From NCBI GenBank assembly GCA_024222295.1, contig JAAEPF010000002.1, positions 372,001 to 436,000 of the forward strand: a DNA stretch of 64,000 nucleotides, in the 5' to 3' direction. This document shows, in pieces, positions 9,413 to 52,194 of this stretch (its first letter is position 1; every line of letters begins with the position of its first letter). The notes under the pieces are model-generated. The model had not been told where the DNA came from. It saw only the letters and a program-made list of their open reading frames with translations, and ran no database searches. Source of the DNA: Actinomycetes bacterium (GTDB lineage Bacteria; Actinomycetota; Acidimicrobiia; Acidimicrobiales; Microtrichaceae). A program made the position numbers and the translations under genes.

Positions 9413-9842
9413 CCGACCCGTCGGGTACTGCCACGGCGTCGGTCGGCACGAGCCGGCTGTCGGCGAGCGCCGCGGTGCGGTGGCCCATGATGGCCTGGTA
9501 CTCAGCGGAGGCGACCATGCCGGCGAACGTGGCCAGGTCCGGGTATCGGATCAGCGCCATGTCATCCCACTGCTCGTCGTCGGGGCCTATCACCGTCGGG
9601 TTGCAGGCGCCGAAGAACACCGGTGCCGCTCCGAGGCCTGCGAGTATCGGCAGCACGCCCGCGGAGTACAGCCCGTAGGCCTCGCGGCCGCTGACCGGCT
9701 CGGTGGGAGCAAGGCCTGCGTGCTCGGAGTAGTCGGCGACGTCGCGGTAGCGCAGCAGGTTGAGCATCGTGACCGGGCCTTCGATCCCTGATGCCATGAG
9801 GCGTTCGAGTTGGGCTTCGGTCGGTTCGATGTGTCCTGTCAT
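9408..9842 (-). CDS. DUF1330-family protein
   Basis: A 144-residue dimeric alpha+beta-barrel type protein. EGPVTMLNLLRYRD near the N-terminus and a C-terminal stretch (YPDLATFAGMVASAEYQAI) are characteristic of DUF1330, whose members are small ferredoxin-like-fold proteins of unknown role. It starts at ATG 9842 with CAGGAT 7 bases upstream, and is divergent from sbcD with only about 57 bases between the two starts. Confidence 0.8.
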   Translation of the reverse strand: MTGHIEPTEAQLERLMASGIEGPVTMLNLLRYRDVADYSEHAGLAPTEPVSGREAYGLYSAGVLPILAGLGAAPVFFGACNPTVIGPDDEQWDDMALIRYPDLATFAGMVASAEYQAIMGHRTAALADSRLVPTDAVAVPDGSA

Positions 9843-9886
9843 GGGCCGAATCCTGCCAAATCCGCAGCGTTGTCACACCCCCTTCG

Positions 9887-9892
9887 TAGCTT
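9887..9892 (+). promoter_or_regulatory. -10 element TAGCTT of a leaderless promoter
   Basis: TAGCTT ends 7 bases before ATG 9900 of sbcD. The spacer TGGGGGC is almost the same as that before the hydrolase start at 63982. Confidence 0.6.
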
Positions 9893-9899
9893 TGGGGGC

Positions 9900-11051
9900 A
9901 TGCGAGTACTGCACACTTCCGACTGGCACCTCGGGCGCTCACTGGGGGATCACCGCCTCCTTGAGGACCAGGCAGCCTTCTGTGACTGGCTCGTGGGCTT
10001 CGTGGCCGGCGAGAAGATCGACCTCGTGGCCGTGTCGGGTGACCTGTTCGACCGCTCGATCCCGCCCGGCGACGCCTGGACGCTGCTGTGCGACGTCTTC
10101 AGCCGCCTTCGTTCCGCAGGCGCCACGGTGGCCGCGATTGCGGGCAACCACGACAGCGCGGGCCGCCTCGCCGCCCTCGATGACCTGCTCAACGGCGCCG
10201 GGGTGTACCTGCGCGGCGGATACGCACGCGCCGGCTCGGTCACGGAGCTCGACTTGGGCGGCCATCCGCTCGCCCTCGTCACCACGCCCTTCCTGGATCC
10301 CCACATGGCCCCCTCCGAGGTGGCGGAGCCGCTCCGGGAGGCGTCGGCGCTCAGCCACGAGGGTGTGTTGGCACTCGCCATGCACGGTGCCCGGTCCGCC
10401 ATGCCCGATGGCATTCCCAGCATGGTCCTGTCTCATGCGTTCGTCACCGGTGCCGCCCGCAGCGACTCCGAGCGTGAGCTCGCGGTGGGCGAGGCGGCGA
10501 TGGTCTCCGCAGAGGTCTTCTCGGGGTTCGACTACGTGGCCCTCGGCCATCTGCACCAGCCCCAGAGCGTGGCCGGTGAGGAGCGCATCCGCTACAGCGG
10601 GTCGCCGCTGCCCTACTCGTTTTCGGAAACCGGCCCGAAGAGTGTGTGCATTGCCGAGCTCGATGAGGCTGGCCTTGTGGGGGTCACCTCCGTCGAGGTG
10701 CCCGTGGGGCGCAGCGTCGTCACTGTGCGCGGCACCCTGGAAGACCTGGCCGAGTCCGCCGGCGATGCACGCAACTTCGTGCGGGCAGAACTCACTGACG
10801 AGCTGCGGCCGGTCGACGCCGCAAGGCTGCTGAGGTCGAGCTTCCCGTGGCTTGCCGAGGTCGAGTGGGTCGGCGGGCGACGCGACGGCATCCAGGGCCT
10901 GAGCGTCAGCGAGGTCGCAGTGCGCACCCCCGGTGAGCTGGTCGACGACTTCTGGCGCGACGTGCGCGGCGAGCGGCCTGGCGAAGAGGTGCGCGCCATG
11001 TTGCACGGCGCCCTGCACGGCACCGATACCGGTGAGTTCGCAGCCGCATGA
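9900..11051 (+). CDS. sbcD: Exonuclease SbcCD, subunit D (Mre11-like nuclease)
   Basis: The 383-residue calcineurin-like phosphoesterase is the nuclease subunit of the SbcCD complex, which opens hairpins and trims protein-blocked DNA ends. All metal motifs are present: HTSDWHLG (residues 6-13), VSGDLFDRS, AGNHDSAGR, ALAMHG and ALGHLHQPQ. ATG 9900 (MRVLHTSDW) is the usual SbcD start; the upstream extension is out of family and covers the promoter. The stop overlaps sbcC by four bases (ATGA), so the subunits are made together. Confidence 0.95.
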   Translation: MRVLHTSDWHLGRSLGDHRLLEDQAAFCDWLVGFVAGEKIDLVAVSGDLFDRSIPPGDAWTLLCDVFSRLRSAGATVAAIAGNHDSAGRLAALDDLLNGAGVYLRGGYARAGSVTELDLGGHPLALVTTPFLDPHMAPSEVAEPLREASALSHEGVLALAMHGARSAMPDGIPSMVLSHAFVTGAARSDSERELAVGEAAMVSAEVFSGFDYVALGHLHQPQSVAGEERIRYSGSPLPYSFSETGPKSVCIAELDEAGLVGVTSVEVPVGRSVVTVRGTLEDLAESAGDARNFVRAELTDELRPVDAARLLRSSFPWLAEVEWVGGRRDGIQGLSVSEVAVRTPGELVDDFWRDVRGERPGEEVRAMLHGALHGTDTGEFAAA

Positions 11052-46568: not shown

Positions 46569-46665
46569 CCTTCCTCCTGGCCCCGGACTCCGGGCGCCAC
46601 TTGGCCTGATTGGCTTCCCCCGTCCATGGATGAGACGCGCCTGCGGGCGCATTGTCGGGAGAGGC

Positions 46666-47052
46666 ATGCCACGTGGAGACGGCAATGCAGCGTCGCGTCG
46701 TCACGACCACCTCAGGTTGGGGCGCCACGGCGAGGACCTGGTCGCGCGGTGGTACGTGAGCAGGGGTGCGCAGGTGCTGGCGCGCAACTGGCGCTGCAAA
46801 CAGGGCGAGATCGACCTGGTGCTGCTCGAGGGGCGCGAGGTCGTGTTCTGCGAGGTGAAGACCAGATCGTCGGGCCGCTACGGATCGCCGTTCGAGGCCG
46901 TCGACGCCAGGCGCCGCTCGAGACTGCGTGCTGCTGGCATGGAGTTCCTGCGTTCGGGGGAACCACGGCCAGCCGCTGGTCGCGTCGGGGTCCGGTTCGA
47001 CATAGCGGCAGTGATCGGCTCGAAGGTGGAGGTGATCACTGCTGCGTTCTGA
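46666..47052 (+). CDS. UPF0102 (YraN-family) nuclease-like protein
   Basis: The 128-residue protein has the YraN core: LGRHGEDLVARWY, then ARNWRCKQGEIDLVLLEGRE and VFCEVKTRSSGRYG, i.e. the D...E-V-K pattern of PD-(D/E)XK nucleases. Function is unproven. In actinobacteria yraN usually precedes comM and dprA, and here a comM remnant follows after two small minus-strand genes. ATG 46666 follows GGGAGAGG. Confidence 0.88.
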   Translation: MPRGDGNAASRRHDHLRLGRHGEDLVARWYVSRGAQVLARNWRCKQGEIDLVLLEGREVVFCEVKTRSSGRYGSPFEAVDARRRSRLRAAGMEFLRSGEPRPAAGRVGVRFDIAAVIGSKVEVITAAF

Positions 47053-47074
47053 CCGGCAGGCTCGCGTGGGTCAG
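47049..47074. terminator. Hairpin containing both stop codons of convergent genes
   Basis: CTGACC and GGTCAG pair over 14 bases. One arm carries the yraN stop and the other the stop of the 72-residue minus-strand gene. Confidence 0.4.
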
Positions 47075-47289
47075 TCGCGCGGGGCGCGTGTGGAGCGGCG
47101 GTCCCAGCAGCCGCGATGCCAGTGCCGACGCAGGTCGGGCGCGTCGAGCGGTACTGCCACGAAATGGCCCATGCCTGCGGGGATGTCACGGTTGCATCCG
47201 GGGCACACGTACTGCTTGGTGGCCTCGTAGGGCTGGATGCGTCGCACATCACACTCGGTGGTGGCGGTGTAGTCGAGGTTTCGCGGCAT
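47071..47289 (-). CDS. Small zinc-ribbon-like conserved protein, 72 residues
   Basis: A short protein with likely metal ligands: VCPGCNRDIPAGMGHF and RRHWHRGCWDRR. It is basic at both ends. I have seen similar small actinobacterial proteins of unknown role, but no function is assigned. It is followed downstream on the same strand by no gene, and it sits 5 bases after the stop of the small membrane protein gene, so the two are probably one transcript. Confidence 0.7.
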   Translation of the reverse strand: MPRNLDYTATTECDVRRIQPYEATKQYVCPGCNRDIPAGMGHFVAVPLDAPDLRRHWHRGCWDRRSTRAPRD

Positions 47290-47294
47290 GGCGC

Positions 47295-47423
47295 TCAGCC
47301 CAGCACGGCCCAGATCAGCAGGCCGACGGCCACCGCCAGTGCGGCCACGACGAACACGACATCGGCAGGGGAGCGGCGCTGCTTGCGGTGCGGATTGAAT
47401 CCCACCGGTCCATTATCGGCCAT
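47295..47423 (-). CDS. Small single-pass membrane protein, 42 residues
   Basis: The product is MADNGPVGFNPHRKQRR followed by one hydrophobic helix (VVFVVAALAVAVGLLIWAVL). A basic stretch before the helix suggests the N-terminus stays in the cytoplasm. ATG 47423 is preferred; ATG 47441 or an even longer start is possible. Function unknown. Confidence 0.6.
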   Translation of the reverse strand: MADNGPVGFNPHRKQRRSPADVVFVVAALAVAVGLLIWAVLG

Positions 47424-47469
47424 CGACCCCGGCTCGCCCATGTTGGAGCCCGGCGGGTGTTGCCTGTCA

Positions 47470-47720
47470 GCCGTGCGGCCAACACCACCTGCTGAGCTCC
47501 GAGCAGGTCTGGCCATCTCGCCGGATGACCGTCAATCTCGCACCGACCACTTTGCGCAAGGTCGGCGCAGGTTCCGCGCAGGCACAACCTGCTCGGCCAC
47601 CAGTAGCGCCACCGCGATGGCGAGGTCGAGAAGTGTGGAGGGCCTCGCATTCATCGGCGAACTCGGGCTCGACGGGTCGCTTCGTCCGCTCGTCGACACT
47701 GACCGAACTCGGTTGCTCCA
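47470..47720 (+). pseudogene. comM: comM (yifB) remnant with frame change and inverted piece
   Basis: Three pieces of the ComM N-terminal domain can be read. Plus strand, 47489-47572: LLSSEQVWPSRRMTVNLAP and TLRKVGAG. Minus strand, 47571-47630: LDLAIAVALLVAEQVVPARN, the part that should come next. Plus strand, different frame, 47635-47700: VEGLAFIGELGLDGSLRPL. The middle piece therefore lies inverted. The first 70 or so codons, the ATPase domain and the C-terminus are missing. ComM is a hexameric helicase for branch migration in natural transformation, so the gene is dead. Confidence 0.8.
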
Positions 47721-47756
47721 CGTTGCTGAAGGCTGAAGGGCAGCGACTTCGTTGTG

Positions 47757-48638
47757 TCAGCTCAGGTGGTCGAGCAGGGCTCGGGCCGCCATTTGGCCGA
47801 AGTCGTTGGCTGCCTTCGGGCTTGCGCCGGATACGAGTTTCCGGTCGGTGTGGCAGGTGTCGTCAGCTTTGTTGTTGACGATCTCGACACCGATGTTCTT
47901 CAGCTTCTCGCCGAAGTGCCAGGGCATGTGCCCGGGCATGTAGCCGATTCGTGGGGTTTGCCTGTCGACCTTGTCAGGGAACGCCGCGATCTTGTACCCG
48001 CTGTAGACGAATGCTCCTCCGGTGGTCGTCGACACCGACGGGTCGGCTGAGTCTGGGAGGTTCGCTGCGAGCAGCGCTGCTGGTCCGTGGCAGATGGCCA
48101 GCATGCGCAGATCTCGGTCGTGACACCACCGGATGATCTTGCCGACATCTTCGTTCTCGGGTAGGCCCAGCATTGCTCCGTGGCCACCGGGCAGGAACAC
48201 GGCGACGTAGGGAGAGGTGTCGTTGAGGTGCTCCGAGGCGAAGTCAGCGACCGACCCCGGGTTGTCGAACTTCTCCTTGAAGGACGCGTAGAACGCCTTC
48301 ACGGCATCGTCCTTTTCTGGCATTGCCCACATCTCGATCTTCACCGGCGCTCCCGTCGGTGTGACGATGTCGATATCGAAGCCTGCGTCGGTGAGGTGCA
48401 TCATTGGGACCAGCATCTCGACAGGGTGATTGCCGGTGGAGAACTTCTTTCCGTTCGCCATGGTCATGTTGCGCTCTTCGGTGCAGATCATGAGGATCTT
48501 CAGGTCGCCGGTGTAGCCATTTGCGTAGTCGACCTTCGCGTAGTCCGTGACGTCAGTGGTTGCCATCCGGAGCGCAAACTTCGACGGGGCGAAAGCTCCG
48601 TCATCTGTGGGCTGGGGTGAAAGGGGATTCTTGAACAT
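47757..48638 (-). CDS. hchA: Hsp31/HchA-type DJ-1 family protein (glyoxalase III, deglycase)
   Basis: The 293-residue protein matches E. coli HchA along its length: LFSTGNHP-like FSTGNHPVEMLVP, WAMPEKDDAV, FLPGGHGAMLGLPE, the nucleophile AICHGPAALL (Cys183, His184) with Glu74, and RIGYMPGHMPWHFGE. HchA converts methylglyoxal to lactate without cofactor and acts as a stress chaperone. An AGGA sequence precedes ATG 48638. It lies 41 bases after the quinone reductase gene on the same strand, so both belong to the HxlR-controlled cassette. Confidence 0.92.
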   Translation of the reverse strand: MFKNPLSPQPTDDGAFAPSKFALRMATTDVTDYAKVDYANGYTGDLKILMICTEERNMTMANGKKFSTGNHPVEMLVPMMHLTDAGFDIDIVTPTGAPVKIEMWAMPEKDDAVKAFYASFKEKFDNPGSVADFASEHLNDTSPYVAVFLPGGHGAMLGLPENEDVGKIIRWCHDRDLRMLAICHGPAALLAANLPDSADPSVSTTTGGAFVYSGYKIAAFPDKVDRQTPRIGYMPGHMPWHFGEKLKNIGVEIVNNKADDTCHTDRKLVSGASPKAANDFGQMAARALLDHLS

Positions 48639-48679
48639 TCTGGGTCCTCGTTCGGAAGGGTTGGAGTGGAGCGCGACGG

Positions 48680-49603
48680 TCAGCGAACGGCGACGGCGAC
48701 TTTGCCGTTCGGGCCGCCGGTGCGGGCGTAGTCGTAGGCGGCGGCGACGTCGTCGAGGGGGAAGGTGCGGTCGAGCACGGGACGGATCTTGCCGTCGGTG
48801 ATCAGTGCGGCCATCTCGGCGAGCTGTTCGCCGTTGGGTTGCATGAAGAACGAGTGAAATGTGATGTCGCGTTCGGCTGCGAGTCCGTCGGGTGCGTCGC
48901 CCTTGATGGAGACGATGGTGCCGCCCGGCTTCACGGCGTCGAATGACCGCTTCAGGGTGTCGTCGCCGAGCATGTCGAACACGAGGTCGTACTTCTCGGC
49001 GACGTCTTCGAACCGCTCGTTCGAGTAGTCGACGAACTGATCTGCGCCGAGGTTCACGACGAGCTCCTTGTTCTTCGCGCTGGCGGTCGTCTCGACCCAC
49101 GCTCCTGCGTACTTCGCGATTTGGATTGCCAAGGTGCCGACGCCGCCGGAGCCGGCGTGGATCAACACGCGTTGACCGGACGTGAGCCCGCCCTTGTCGA
49201 ACAGCGCTTGCCACGCGGTGAGGCCTGCGAGCGGGATGCCCGCCGCTTCCGCGTGGGAGATGTTGTTGGGTTTGATCGCGAGAGCGCTCGCCTTCAACGC
49301 CGCATACTCAGCCATCGTCCCAGCCTGCATGCTGTCGGCGCGGGCAAACACCTCGTCGCCGACGGAGAAGCCACGGGCGTCGGCCCCGACCTCGACGACT
49401 ACGCCGGACACGTCGTAGCCGACGATCCAGGGAAGCTCGTAGGGCAGCATCTCTTGCACGTATCCAGCCATCACGATCCAGTCGATCGGGTTGATCGCAG
49501 CGGCATAAACTTCGACCATCACGCTGTCGTCGGGAAGATCGGGCCGATCGACCTCGGCGACCTCGGGGTCGTTGCCGTACTCGCTTAGAACTGCTGCCTT
49601 CAT
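48680..49603 (-). CDS. Zinc-independent NADPH quinone oxidoreductase (MDR family)
   Basis: The 307-residue medium-chain reductase has the N-terminal MKAAVLSEYGNDPEVAEVD strand set, NPIDWIVMAG, and the NADPH fold AGSGGVGTLAIQIAKYAG, with none of the zinc ligands of alcohol dehydrogenases. Relatives reduce quinones or enones. Two ATG codons lie in tandem; ATG 49603 has better spacing from AGGAG (5 bases) than ATG 49606. The neighbouring HxlR protein and palindromic operator imply induction by quinones or similar electrophiles. Confidence 0.88.
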   Translation of the reverse strand: MKAAVLSEYGNDPEVAEVDRPDLPDDSVMVEVYAAAINPIDWIVMAGYVQEMLPYELPWIVGYDVSGVVVEVGADARGFSVGDEVFARADSMQAGTMAEYAALKASALAIKPNNISHAEAAGIPLAGLTAWQALFDKGGLTSGQRVLIHAGSGGVGTLAIQIAKYAGAWVETTASAKNKELVVNLGADQFVDYSNERFEDVAEKYDLVFDMLGDDTLKRSFDAVKPGGTIVSIKGDAPDGLAAERDITFHSFFMQPNGEQLAEMAALITDGKIRPVLDRTFPLDDVAAAYDYARTGGPNGKVAVAVR

Positions 49604-49639
49604 CATGTCTCCTCGTGAAATTCGTTGGCGGGGAGGAAA

Positions 49640-49663
49640 CAGTATCGATACGATACTGGTATC
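49640..49663. promoter_or_regulatory. Compound palindromic operator between qor and hxlR
   Basis: CAGTATCG-ATA-CGATACTG (49640-49658) is a perfect 8-base inverted repeat. GATAC-TG-GTATC (49652-49663) is a second palindrome sharing half of it, and GTATCGATAC sits within the first. Such overlapping GTATC/GATAC half-sites in the divergent gap are what an HxlR dimer would be expected to bind. Confidence 0.7.
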
Positions 49664-49696
49664 TACAACGGTACTAAGGGAAGGAAGTGGTGAACC

Positions 49697-50071
49697 GTGA
49701 CCGATGACACAACAGACCCGACCGTCTGCCACATGGCCGGCTTCACCGGCGTGATCGGCGGGCGATGGAAACTCGGAATACTCTGCACCCTGTCCACTGA
49801 CGGCAAGGCCCGCTTCAACGAACTCGTGGAACGGCTCCATCCCATCACGCCGACCACGCTGACCCGCCAGCTCCGAGAACTCGAGCGGGACGGGCTGGTC
49901 AAGCGAACCCAATACAACGAGATACCCCCAAGAGTGGAGTACGAGGCAACAGAGCTGTCGGCCACGCTCAGACCCGTACTCGACACAATCGCAGAGTGGG
50001 TTCACACCCACGCCATTCGAAGTGGCAAAGCGACCGAACCCGCTGGTATCGAGGTCAGCCAACCTGAGTGA
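49697..50071 (+). CDS. HxlR-family redox/electrophile-sensing regulator
   Basis: The 124-residue winged-helix regulator has the family opening around VCHMAGFTGVIGGRWKLGIL, the recognition block ARFNELVERLHPITPTTLTRQL and the wing RTQYNEIPPRVEYEAT. Cys11 is in the place of the sensing Cys of YodB/QorR-type members, and Cys30 follows. It is divergent from the quinone reductase across a perfect palindrome, so it probably represses both and releases when modified by quinones, aldehydes or diamide-like agents. GTG 49697 follows GGGAAGGAAG. Confidence 0.88.
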   Translation: MTDDTTDPTVCHMAGFTGVIGGRWKLGILCTLSTDGKARFNELVERLHPITPTTLTRQLRELERDGLVKRTQYNEIPPRVEYEATELSATLRPVLDTIAEWVHTHAIRSGKATEPAGIEVSQPE

Positions 50072-50373
50072 TCGCGTAGCTCAACGTTCGCGCGCCAAAG
50101 GCGCCGAACCGCTGAAGCGTTCGCTCTGAGATGATCGGGTTGGGGTCGGAGCCGGTGTTCAAAGCGCGCATATCGACGAACAGAACTCGCTCCCGCTACC
50201 GAGCGAGATCGGCACTTCTGATCGGTGACTGCGCGCCTCCGCACCCGCCCATAACCGCGACTGAGAGCGCGCTGTCGACCACCCGGTAACCGGCGGAGTC
50301 GTGCACATCAACGCTCGATAATCCCACAGGCGGGTGACAGCGGCGCGAGGGTTTGAAAGAGTTCGATTAGGCA
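50072..50373. other. Non-coding junction between hxlR and the truncated dprA
   Basis: About 300 bases with no convincing gene. A 38-codon minus-strand frame (50055-50171) reads MRALNTGSDPNPIISER..., which looks protein-like but is unmatched. A small GCGCC-AAA-GGCGC hairpin is near 50092-50104. I see no trace of the dprA N-terminus. Confidence 0.5.
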
Positions 50374-51123
50374 GTGGCGATCGTGGGCACCCGTCGAGCA
50401 TCGTCCTACGGGCTGCGTGTGGCCGGCGCCCTGGGCCGGGAGCTCTCCGCAGCCGGAGTGATTGTGGTCTCGGGGCTTGCGCTCGGCATCGATGGCGCCG
50501 CGCACCGCGGTGCGCTCGAGGGGCCGGGTGCGGCGTTGGCCGTGATCGGAGCAGGCCACGACCGGCCGTGCCCCACGCGCAACAGGTCGCTCGCCGCGGA
50601 AGTGGCCGCCCGCGGCCTGATCCTGAGCGAGGTGCCACCGGGAGTCGGCTCAGCGCCCTGGCGTTATCCGGTACGAAACCGCCTGATCGCGGCGTTCGCC
50701 CGAGTGGTCATCGTGGTGGAATCCGCCAGGCGTGGCGGTTCGATGTCCACCGTTGCCGAGGCGTTGGCTCGTGATCGCGCCGTGATGGCCGTCCCGGGTG
50801 CTGTCGGACGTCGCTCCAGCGAGGGCTGTCACGACCTGCTGCGCGACGGCGCCGAAGTGTGCACGGGCGCCGACGATGTGCTGGGCCTGCTGGCCATGAA
50901 CCAGGCCGGCTGCGGGAGCCCGGATTCCGACGGGGGCGTTGCACGGCCTGGGTTGTCCGGCCTCGAGCGGCAGGTGCTCGAGGAGTTGGCCGGGGATCCG
51001 CTCACCGTCGACTCGCTGGTACTCCGAACGGGGACGTCGATGGGCCGGATTGCAGGCGTATTGGCGGGACTCGAGGCACGCGGCCGCATCCGGTCGCGAT
51101 CGGGATGGCTCGAACGAACATGA
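50374..51123 (+). CDS. dprA: DprA/Smf homologue lacking its N-terminal region
   Basis: The 249-residue frame has the complete Rossmann-like domain of DprA (VAIVGTRRASSYG, VSGLALGIDGAAHRGAL, PCPTRNRSLAAEVA, RNRLIAAFARVVIVVE, RGGSMSTVAEAL) and the C-terminal winged helix (LSGLERQVLEELAGDPLTVDSL). The N-terminal SAM-like domain and linker, about 100 residues, are absent, and an in-frame TAG lies 6 bases before the first GTG. DprA loads RecA on incoming DNA. This version may be inactive, or the remaining DNA-binding domain may be made from GTG 50374, for which no ribosome binding site is visible. Confidence 0.82.
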   Translation: MAIVGTRRASSYGLRVAGALGRELSAAGVIVVSGLALGIDGAAHRGALEGPGAALAVIGAGHDRPCPTRNRSLAAEVAARGLILSEVPPGVGSAPWRYPVRNRLIAAFARVVIVVESARRGGSMSTVAEALARDRAVMAVPGAVGRRSSEGCHDLLRDGAEVCTGADDVLGLLAMNQAGCGSPDSDGGVARPGLSGLERQVLEELAGDPLTVDSLVLRTGTSMGRIAGVLAGLEARGRIRSRSGWLERT

Positions 51124-51285: not shown

Positions 51286-52194
51286 GTGGACGAAGACGTG
51301 TGGCAGACAGAGGGGTTCGTGTCCTCGCTGTCTCTTGCCGACTCCACGGTCGCGGTCTACCGCCGCGAGGTGGAGCACTTCGCCGACTGGGCGGCCCGTG
51401 GTGGCCTCGATTCGCCCGTACAGGTCGACCTGGCGGTACTGCGCCGCTATCTGGCATGGCTCACCACGATGAAGCGGGCACCCCGCACGATCAGCCGCAT
51501 CGCTGCGTGCCTCCGGCGCTACTTCGGCTGGGCCCACCGCCGGGGGATGATCGAGTCCGACCCGTCGGCCGCGCTGCGCTCACCGAGCGGCGGCTCCCGG
51601 CTGCCACGGGTGCTGAAGGCCGACGAGCTCAACCAGATCCTCGACGAGACGCCGCCTGCGGACGAGTCTGCAGATTCCGAGCCCGCCGAGCGAACCCTTC
51701 GCGACGACCTGGTTCTGGAGATCCTCTATGGCTCGGGCCTGCGGGTGTCGGAGCTATGCGGTCTCGACGTCTCGGACGTCGACCTCGTGCAGAATCGCCT
51801 CTCGGTGTGGGGCAAGGGCTCCAAGCAGCGAATGGTCCCACTGTCGGACCCGGCGGCCGACCTCTCCGCGGCCTGGCTGCGTGCCGGACGCGCACGCCAC
51901 CTCGAGCACACGGGGGCGGAGCCGGCGGAAGCCGCCATGTTCACCAACACCCGCGGCAAGCGGCTTGCGCCACGCGACGTCCGCCGCATCCTCGATCGCC
52001 GGTCGCCGGTGCCGACGCACCCGCATGCCCTCCGTCACACCTTCGCCACTCATTTACTGGACGGTGGTGCCGACCTGAGAGAAGTACAGGAACTCCTTGG
52101 CCACACCGACGTGGCCACCACCCAGATATATACGCACGTGAGCCTCCAGCGGCTTCAGAGCGTGTATGAAGACGCACACCCGAGGGCGAATTGA
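51286..52194 (+). CDS. xerC: Tyrosine recombinase XerC/XerD type
   Basis: The 302-residue recombinase resolves chromosome dimers. The core-binding domain covers residues 1-95. The catalytic set is complete: R153 (SGLRVSEL), K177 (GKGSKQR), H247 and R250 (HALRHTF), H273 (LGHTDVATT) and the nucleophile Y282 (IYTHVS). The conserved chromosomal position next to dprA and whiG marks it as the housekeeping Xer protein rather than a mobile-element integrase. GTG 51286 is the start; TAGAGT at 51218-51223 is a possible -10 box in the 162-base gap upstream. Confidence 0.93.
   Translation: MDEDVWQTEGFVSSLSLADSTVAVYRREVEHFADWAARGGLDSPVQVDLAVLRRYLAWLTTMKRAPRTISRIAACLRRYFGWAHRRGMIESDPSAALRSPSGGSRLPRVLKADELNQILDETPPADESADSEPAERTLRDDLVLEILYGSGLRVSELCGLDVSDVDLVQNRLSVWGKGSKQRMVPLSDPAADLSAAWLRAGRARHLEHTGAEPAEAAMFTNTRGKRLAPRDVRRILDRRSPVPTHPHALRHTFATHLLDGGADLREVQELLGHTDVATTQIYTHVSLQRLQSVYEDAHPRAN

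Follow-up and report, generated by a model that had tools for sequence, protein, structure and literature searches.

Closest described systems

AdhR of Bacillus subtilis is a MerR-family regulator with the MDR-type alcohol dehydrogenase AdhA in its regulon, QorR-qor2 in Corynebacterium is an HxlR/DUF24 quinone regulon, and the physiological role of Hsp31/HchA is disputed, with chaperone, deglycase and glyoxalase III all being proposed. In Escherichia coli, nemR-nemA-gloA brings together an electrophile-responsive regulator, a reductase, and a methylglyoxal-removing enzyme (PMC3739934, PMC5297802), and Hsp31 acts as a glyoxalase III without needing glutathione (PMC5297802). The aldehyde-responsive regulator of the B. 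subtilis AdhR regulon controls the DJ-1/PfpI superfamily protein YraA (PMC6943732). Among HxlR/DUF24 regulators, YodB/CatR of B. subtilis and QsrR of Staphylococcus aureus control quinone- and nitroreductases, the YodB operator being a short palindrome, TACT-N7-AGTA (PMC6798810, PMC8063818). Finally, comM of Acinetobacter is disrupted by AbaR and other insertions (PMC11472951).

The locus described here lies in a stretch of 64,000 nucleotides (the window; G000 contig C2, 372001-436000) from a 3.76-Mb genome (115 contigs; completeness 97%, contamination 2%); here hchA, qor, and hxlR stand between the remnants of comM and dprA. We consider it likely that a horizontally acquired electrophile-detoxification module under HxlR took the place of about 1.6 kb of native DNA spanning comM and dprA. 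The trio is like nemRA-gloA, one transcription unit in E. coli, in that a regulator, an NAD(P)H-dependent reductase, and a putative methylglyoxal remover are grouped, but no part is homologous: E. coli has the TetR-family NemR, the flavin-type (OYE) NemA, and the glutathione-dependent GloA, whereas the window has HxlR, an MDR-type QOR, and a cofactor-free HchA in a divergent layout, and domain searches found none of the NemR (TetR), NemA (OYE), and GloA families in the trio. The trio would work like nemRA-gloA, as an analogue and not a member of it. The AdhR regulon is similar in placing a DJ-1/PfpI protein under an aldehyde-responsive regulator, but YraA is of the short PfpI type, not HchA, and no HxlR takes part. 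The YodB/CatR/QsrR regulons share the regulator family, and their quinone- or nitroreductase targets and short palindromic operators would have counterparts in the qor and the palindromic candidate operator of the window; they differ in lacking hchA as described (PMC6798810, PMC8063818), in the operator itself, and in the N-terminal sensor Cys that YodB and QsrR conserve and the HxlR clade of the window does not. As with AbaR in Acinetobacter, a transformation gene is broken by imported DNA, but here there is no transposase, no integrase, and no convincing border repeat, native DNA was replaced rather than interrupted, and dprA was hit as well.

A search of the open-access literature found no paper that mentions both HxlR and hchA, and none that treats hchA and a nitroreductase as one system. 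An earlier reading of the sequence alone knew of no described system combining HxlR, QOR, and HchA; the novelty of the combination is softened by nemRA-gloA and AdhR-YraA as functional analogues.

The native site in relatives

ORF and domain searches confirmed the gene order given in the sequence-only reading. On the native left flank, yraN (46630..47052, plus strand; PF02021/NF009154) is syntenic in relatives and is followed by two small native minus-strand ORFs, kept at the same place in relatives, and by the comM remnant (~47486..47695, plus). Then come hchA (47757..48641) and qor (48680..49606), both on the minus strand and 38 bp apart, and, across a gap of 90 bp, the divergent hxlR (49697..50071, plus). 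A non-coding stretch of about 300 bp (50072..50370), without homology to the native site in blastn against the loci of six relatives, leads to the 3' part of dprA (50374..51123, plus), and the syntenic xerC (51286..52194, plus; TIGR02224) forms the native right flank. Both small ORFs are unannotated. The first (47071-47289) has a counterpart of 63 to 86% identity at this position in almost every relative and carries a CxxC motif, with no match in Pfam or NCBIfam; the second (47295-47516) is found at the same place in many relatives and is probably a membrane protein.

We pulled the locus from 20 relatives of the same family, searched with the window's proteins; the nearest genomes in the comparison set belong to other genera of that family, with same-genus relatives absent from the set. 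In 18 of them (L038-L044, L046-L050, L052-L057), dprA, xerC, and whiG follow one order, with yraN and rpsB also syntenic wherever the contig reaches and comM directly upstream of dprA, which bears out the comM-dprA-xerC order assumed for this site. The contig of L045 ends upstream of dprA, and L051 has additional DNA between dprA and xerC. The comM of L040, a low-completeness genome, is frameshifted, which is probably a sequence error since whiG and rpsB of the same genome are frameshifted too. The trio is missing from the site in all 20 same-family relatives. Relatives with intact comM and dprA around the trio were sought and not found, and neither was any sign of the trio as an old vertical resident; the comM-dprA break is peculiar to this genome among the genomes examined.

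A search for ComM gave a match in 57 of 61 genomes, the sole match in the host genome lying on contig C70 and not at this site. This gene (C70:21458-22759; L032 1285-2589 minus; L187) encodes a ComM/Mg-chelatase-like ATPase (PF13541 and PF01078), mostly 35 to 42% identical to the ComM of relatives, without a PHROG family match; the genome bin has no other ComM-like gene. C70 is a phage-like contig of 78.9 kb with genes for QueC, a DnaQ-type exonuclease, a PAPS-reductase-like protein, a primase-helicase, and a helicase. A second chromosomal comM that restores function was rejected, since the only other ComM-like gene sits on this phage-like contig.

Anatomy of the comM-dprA break

By blastn and tblastn against the comM of relatives, the comM remnant comprises 210 bp, covering approximately residues 50 to 120 of ComM, with about the first 50 residues and everything past residue ~120, including the ATPase domain, missing. 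Within it, ~64 bp (47572-47635) are inverted in place: relative to L039, window positions 47488-47571 align forward with 9707-9790, 47592-47630 align reversed with 9830-9792, and 47636-47695 align forward again with 9853-9912. Homology to dprA resumes at 50371-50374, exactly at the VAIVGTR of the Rossmann core and just downstream of an in-frame TAG, leaving the rest of the Rossmann domain and the winged helix (PF02481 positions 47-210, PF17782) without the N-terminal part. Between these edges, ~1.6 kb of native DNA (L039 9912 to 11513) has been swapped for ~2.67 kb. ORF and domain searches found no transposase or integrase genes between 47.7 and 50.4 kb, and no convincing repeats border the replaced segment; an insertion mechanism via border repeats was dropped on the latter ground, and an integron attC-like site, judged by eye alone, was also dropped. 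The host genome keeps an intact comEC.

Loss of competence genes independently of mobile genetic elements is common as a matter of general knowledge, and comM carries separate lesions, the 5' deletion and the in-place inversion, besides the replacement. Decay of comM and dprA for unrelated reasons, with the cassette landing later in a dispensable region, is a possibility that we rate somewhat below even and that is compatible with the replacement we favor. Against it, the replacement itself covers the 3' part of comM and the 5' part of dprA, and the remainder of dprA has changed at only one of 52 otherwise invariant columns (0 to 2 in relatives), which argues against long prior decay. Since the remainder shows no excess change, the truncation of dprA would be fairly recent, or else the fragment is still constrained. 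The comM inversion and 5' deletion may be earlier or later than the arrival of the cassette, and the earlier suggestion that the cassette came at the cost of comM and dprA is one possible course of events.

Distribution and composition of the three genes

In 60 family- and order-level relatives, hchA, qor, and hxlR have no orthologues: the top match of QOR shows 41% identity, that of HxlR shows 45%, and HchA finds only distant PfpI-domain matches. Across the class, a relative at E<=1e-60 occurs in 5 of 395 genomes for HchA and likewise in 5 of 395 for QOR, the host's own genome included in both counts. Much closer QORs exist in an Acidimicrobiales bin, L128 (77% identical), and in G143 of the same class (76%).

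GC content over most of the segment is 0.56 to 0.68, versus 0.68 for the window, while the three genes have GC3 and codon use within the native range. The GC dip is real, and a recent import argued from codon use and GC3 was rejected, both being native-like. Given this codon use, the genes probably came from a high-GC bacterium resembling the host, or else they have had time to adapt; the import would be not recent or would come from a similar genome.

The HchA, QOR, and HxlR proteins

HchA matches NF003168 over its full length (369.5 bits, cut-off 365, residues 8-292) and keeps the catalytic E77, C185, H186, and D214 (E. coli numbering), as do 45 of 45 relatives. The zinc ligands H86, E91, and H123 of E. 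coli Hsp31 are T, D, and F in the window HchA, and H86 and H123 are missing in all 45 relatives, which marks the protein as a putative Hsp31-type glyoxalase III from a subfamily without zinc ligands; in Hsp31 these ligands are not known to be required for glyoxalase activity.

QOR has the GroES-like and Rossmann domains of the zinc-free MDR reductases (PF08240, PF00107, and PF13602 above cut-offs). Because it stays under the curated quinone reductase cut-offs (TIGR02824, 176 bits versus 296.8; PRK10754, 90.7 versus 348), the quinone reductase label would follow from fold and nearest relatives only. Its best solved relative is 4ida, a plant "ripening-induced protein" that we take to be an enone reductase, and we refer to QOR as an MDR-superfamily enzyme with putative NAD(P)H-dependent quinone/enone reductase activity.

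HxlR is an HxlR/DUF24 winged-helix regulator by domain and relatives (PF01638, 92.2 bits versus a gathering score of 20.8). It had been cast as a Cys-containing sensor, a role that is not supported: C11 is present in the window and replaced in L124, L128, L136, L145, and L183, C11 and C30 are both missing from the nearest relatives, and thiol sensing through a conserved Cys was rejected since the HxlR cysteines are not conserved in the clade.

Recurrence of the module in other genomes

Scanning the genome collection for HchA gave 52 loci, many from marine bins and isolates, among which four arrangements recur. In arrangement (i), an HxlR like that of the window is divergent from hchA, alone in L124 and L145, with QOR in L128, and with a nitroreductase in L136; the search of the class added two more such loci, G143/L183 (qor, hxlR, hchA) and G355/L184 (hxlR, hchA, nitroreductase). 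The full set of hxlR, hchA, and qor is found together in two further genomes, L128 and G143/L183 (QOR 76 to 77% identical). Arrangement (ii), in 14 alphaproteobacterial loci, pairs nitroreductase-hchA with a divergent HxlR of a second type that bears a CPDC motif; arrangement (iii), in five loci, has LysR divergent from QOR-hchA; and arrangement (iv), in Bacteroidota, has a Crp-type regulator beside hchA, mostly with a nitroreductase. The HxlR trio was not found near plasmid hits, where other arrangements (Crp-hchA and hchA-LuxR-SDR-QOR) occur. Some of the relatives are metagenome bins, and the cross-phylum cases L138/L141 and L136 could be mis-binned. The nearly identical LysR-QOR-HchA modules of L138 and L141 come from two bins of one project, one Rhizobiaceae and the other Acidimicrobiales, and reflect either a very recent transfer or mis-binning.

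Among the 40 loci with enough flank, a reductase lies within 1.3 kb of hchA in 24, and 27 have a regulator no more than 2.3 kb away; both are present in 21. By contrast, 279 kb of farther flank hold no reductase and a regulator at two loci. The linkage queries were partly taken from the same loci, which makes these counts descriptive, although near and far flanks contrast strongly. Arrangements (ii), (iii), and (iv) each occupy one side of a branch in the HchA tree. The window HchA is not joined with support to the HchAs of the other type-(i) loci, and the module may therefore have been reassembled from parts.

An operator-like element

The qor-hxlR gap contains a 38-bp element (49640..49677) with a perfect 8-3-8 palindrome, CAGTATCG-ATA-CGATACTG, at 49640-49658; arms of at least 8 arise in 1.6% of base shuffles of this region. 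The element is common to the type-(i) loci, though a different gene lies downstream there. Its core, TTAGTACCNTNGNAGATAC, occurs with 0 or 1 mismatch at eight sites in seven loci (window, L124, L128, L136, L145, L183 with two, and L184), always before qor or hchA. The pattern was drawn from the first five sites. The L183 site on the qor side was known prior to the scan, while the other L183 site and that of L184 are new matches, outside the sites behind the pattern. Every other core match in 1.13 Mb of retrieved sequence is a duplicate of one of these loci, and the 3.76-Mb host genome has exactly one site (reversed control, 0). One L183 site lies before qor and the other between hxlR and hchA, and since qor there has its own copy away from hxlR, the element accompanies the gene presumed to be regulated. 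Judged by eye, the element lies over plausible qor -35/-10 boxes (TTGTAG-N16-GATACT), and from this overlap we infer a candidate repressor-type operator.

The type-(ii) HxlR modules have a different conserved dyad, approximately CGGTAACAAA.GTATACCG, in the hxlR-nitroreductase intergenic regions (L121, L125, L126, L130, L137, L140, L144, L146, L147, and L163).

The trio had been taken for one logical unit, and the linkage that recurs in other genomes, together with the conserved operator-like element they share, upholds this. The B. subtilis HxlR controls aldehyde fixation genes (PMC6943732), MDR enzymes have many substrates, and the NCBIfam matches of QOR are all under cut-offs. A metabolic unit, with the MDR enzyme acting on a specific catabolic enone or aldehyde, HchA on a product, and HxlR as an activator like the B. 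subtilis HxlR in formaldehyde fixation, nevertheless seems unlikely to us: catabolic genes do not accompany the set, and in many loci the partner is swapped for a nitroreductase with HchA constant, which fits broad detoxification better. It is less likely still, indeed quite improbable, that independently acquired stress genes came together by chance without forming a functional unit. The identities to the partners in L128 do differ (QOR 77%, HxlR 63%, HchA 61%), and the HchA tree gives no supported join of the window to the type-(i) group, but the linkage is repeated across loci, one conserved element stands before both qor and hchA, and qor and hchA share a strand with just 38 bp between them. 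An assembly or binning artefact, for which the 115 contigs and 2% contamination could be cited, we regard as scarcely credible, an assembly join being unlikely because the comM and dprA remnants are on the correct sides and in the expected order within a 499-kb contig, and codon use being native-like.

Proposed mechanism and significance

Under the preferred explanation, an HxlR-controlled electrophile-detoxification module that replaced part of comM-dprA, illegitimate recombination is the probable route of entry. Most likely, HxlR uses one operator overlapping the qor promoter to repress both qor-hchA and its own gene, and it would be inactivated by reactive quinones, enones, or dicarbonyls, leading to derepression. 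QOR would then reduce quinones or enones with NAD(P)H, and HchA, in parallel, would turn methylglyoxal or glyoxal into hydroxy acids without a cofactor.

In a wider reading, to which we give even chances, an electrophile-defense module has been shuffled horizontally around a constant core, the HchA that lacks the zinc site, while its reductase (QOR or nitroreductase) and its regulator (HxlR of either type, LysR, or Crp-type) are interchangeable, each HxlR type having its own conserved operator and the window representing the HxlR+QOR form. If true, this would be a family of small defense islands so far undescribed as a system. The HchA subfamily, with catalytic residues kept and metal ligands gone, is found repeatedly beside quinone- or nitroreductases and electrophile-type regulators, which points to carbonyl/quinone detoxification. 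The site itself is one more case of comM/dprA loss where foreign DNA settles, and its small putative regulon, for which a candidate operator is defined, offers a means of probing the disputed role of Hsp31/HchA.
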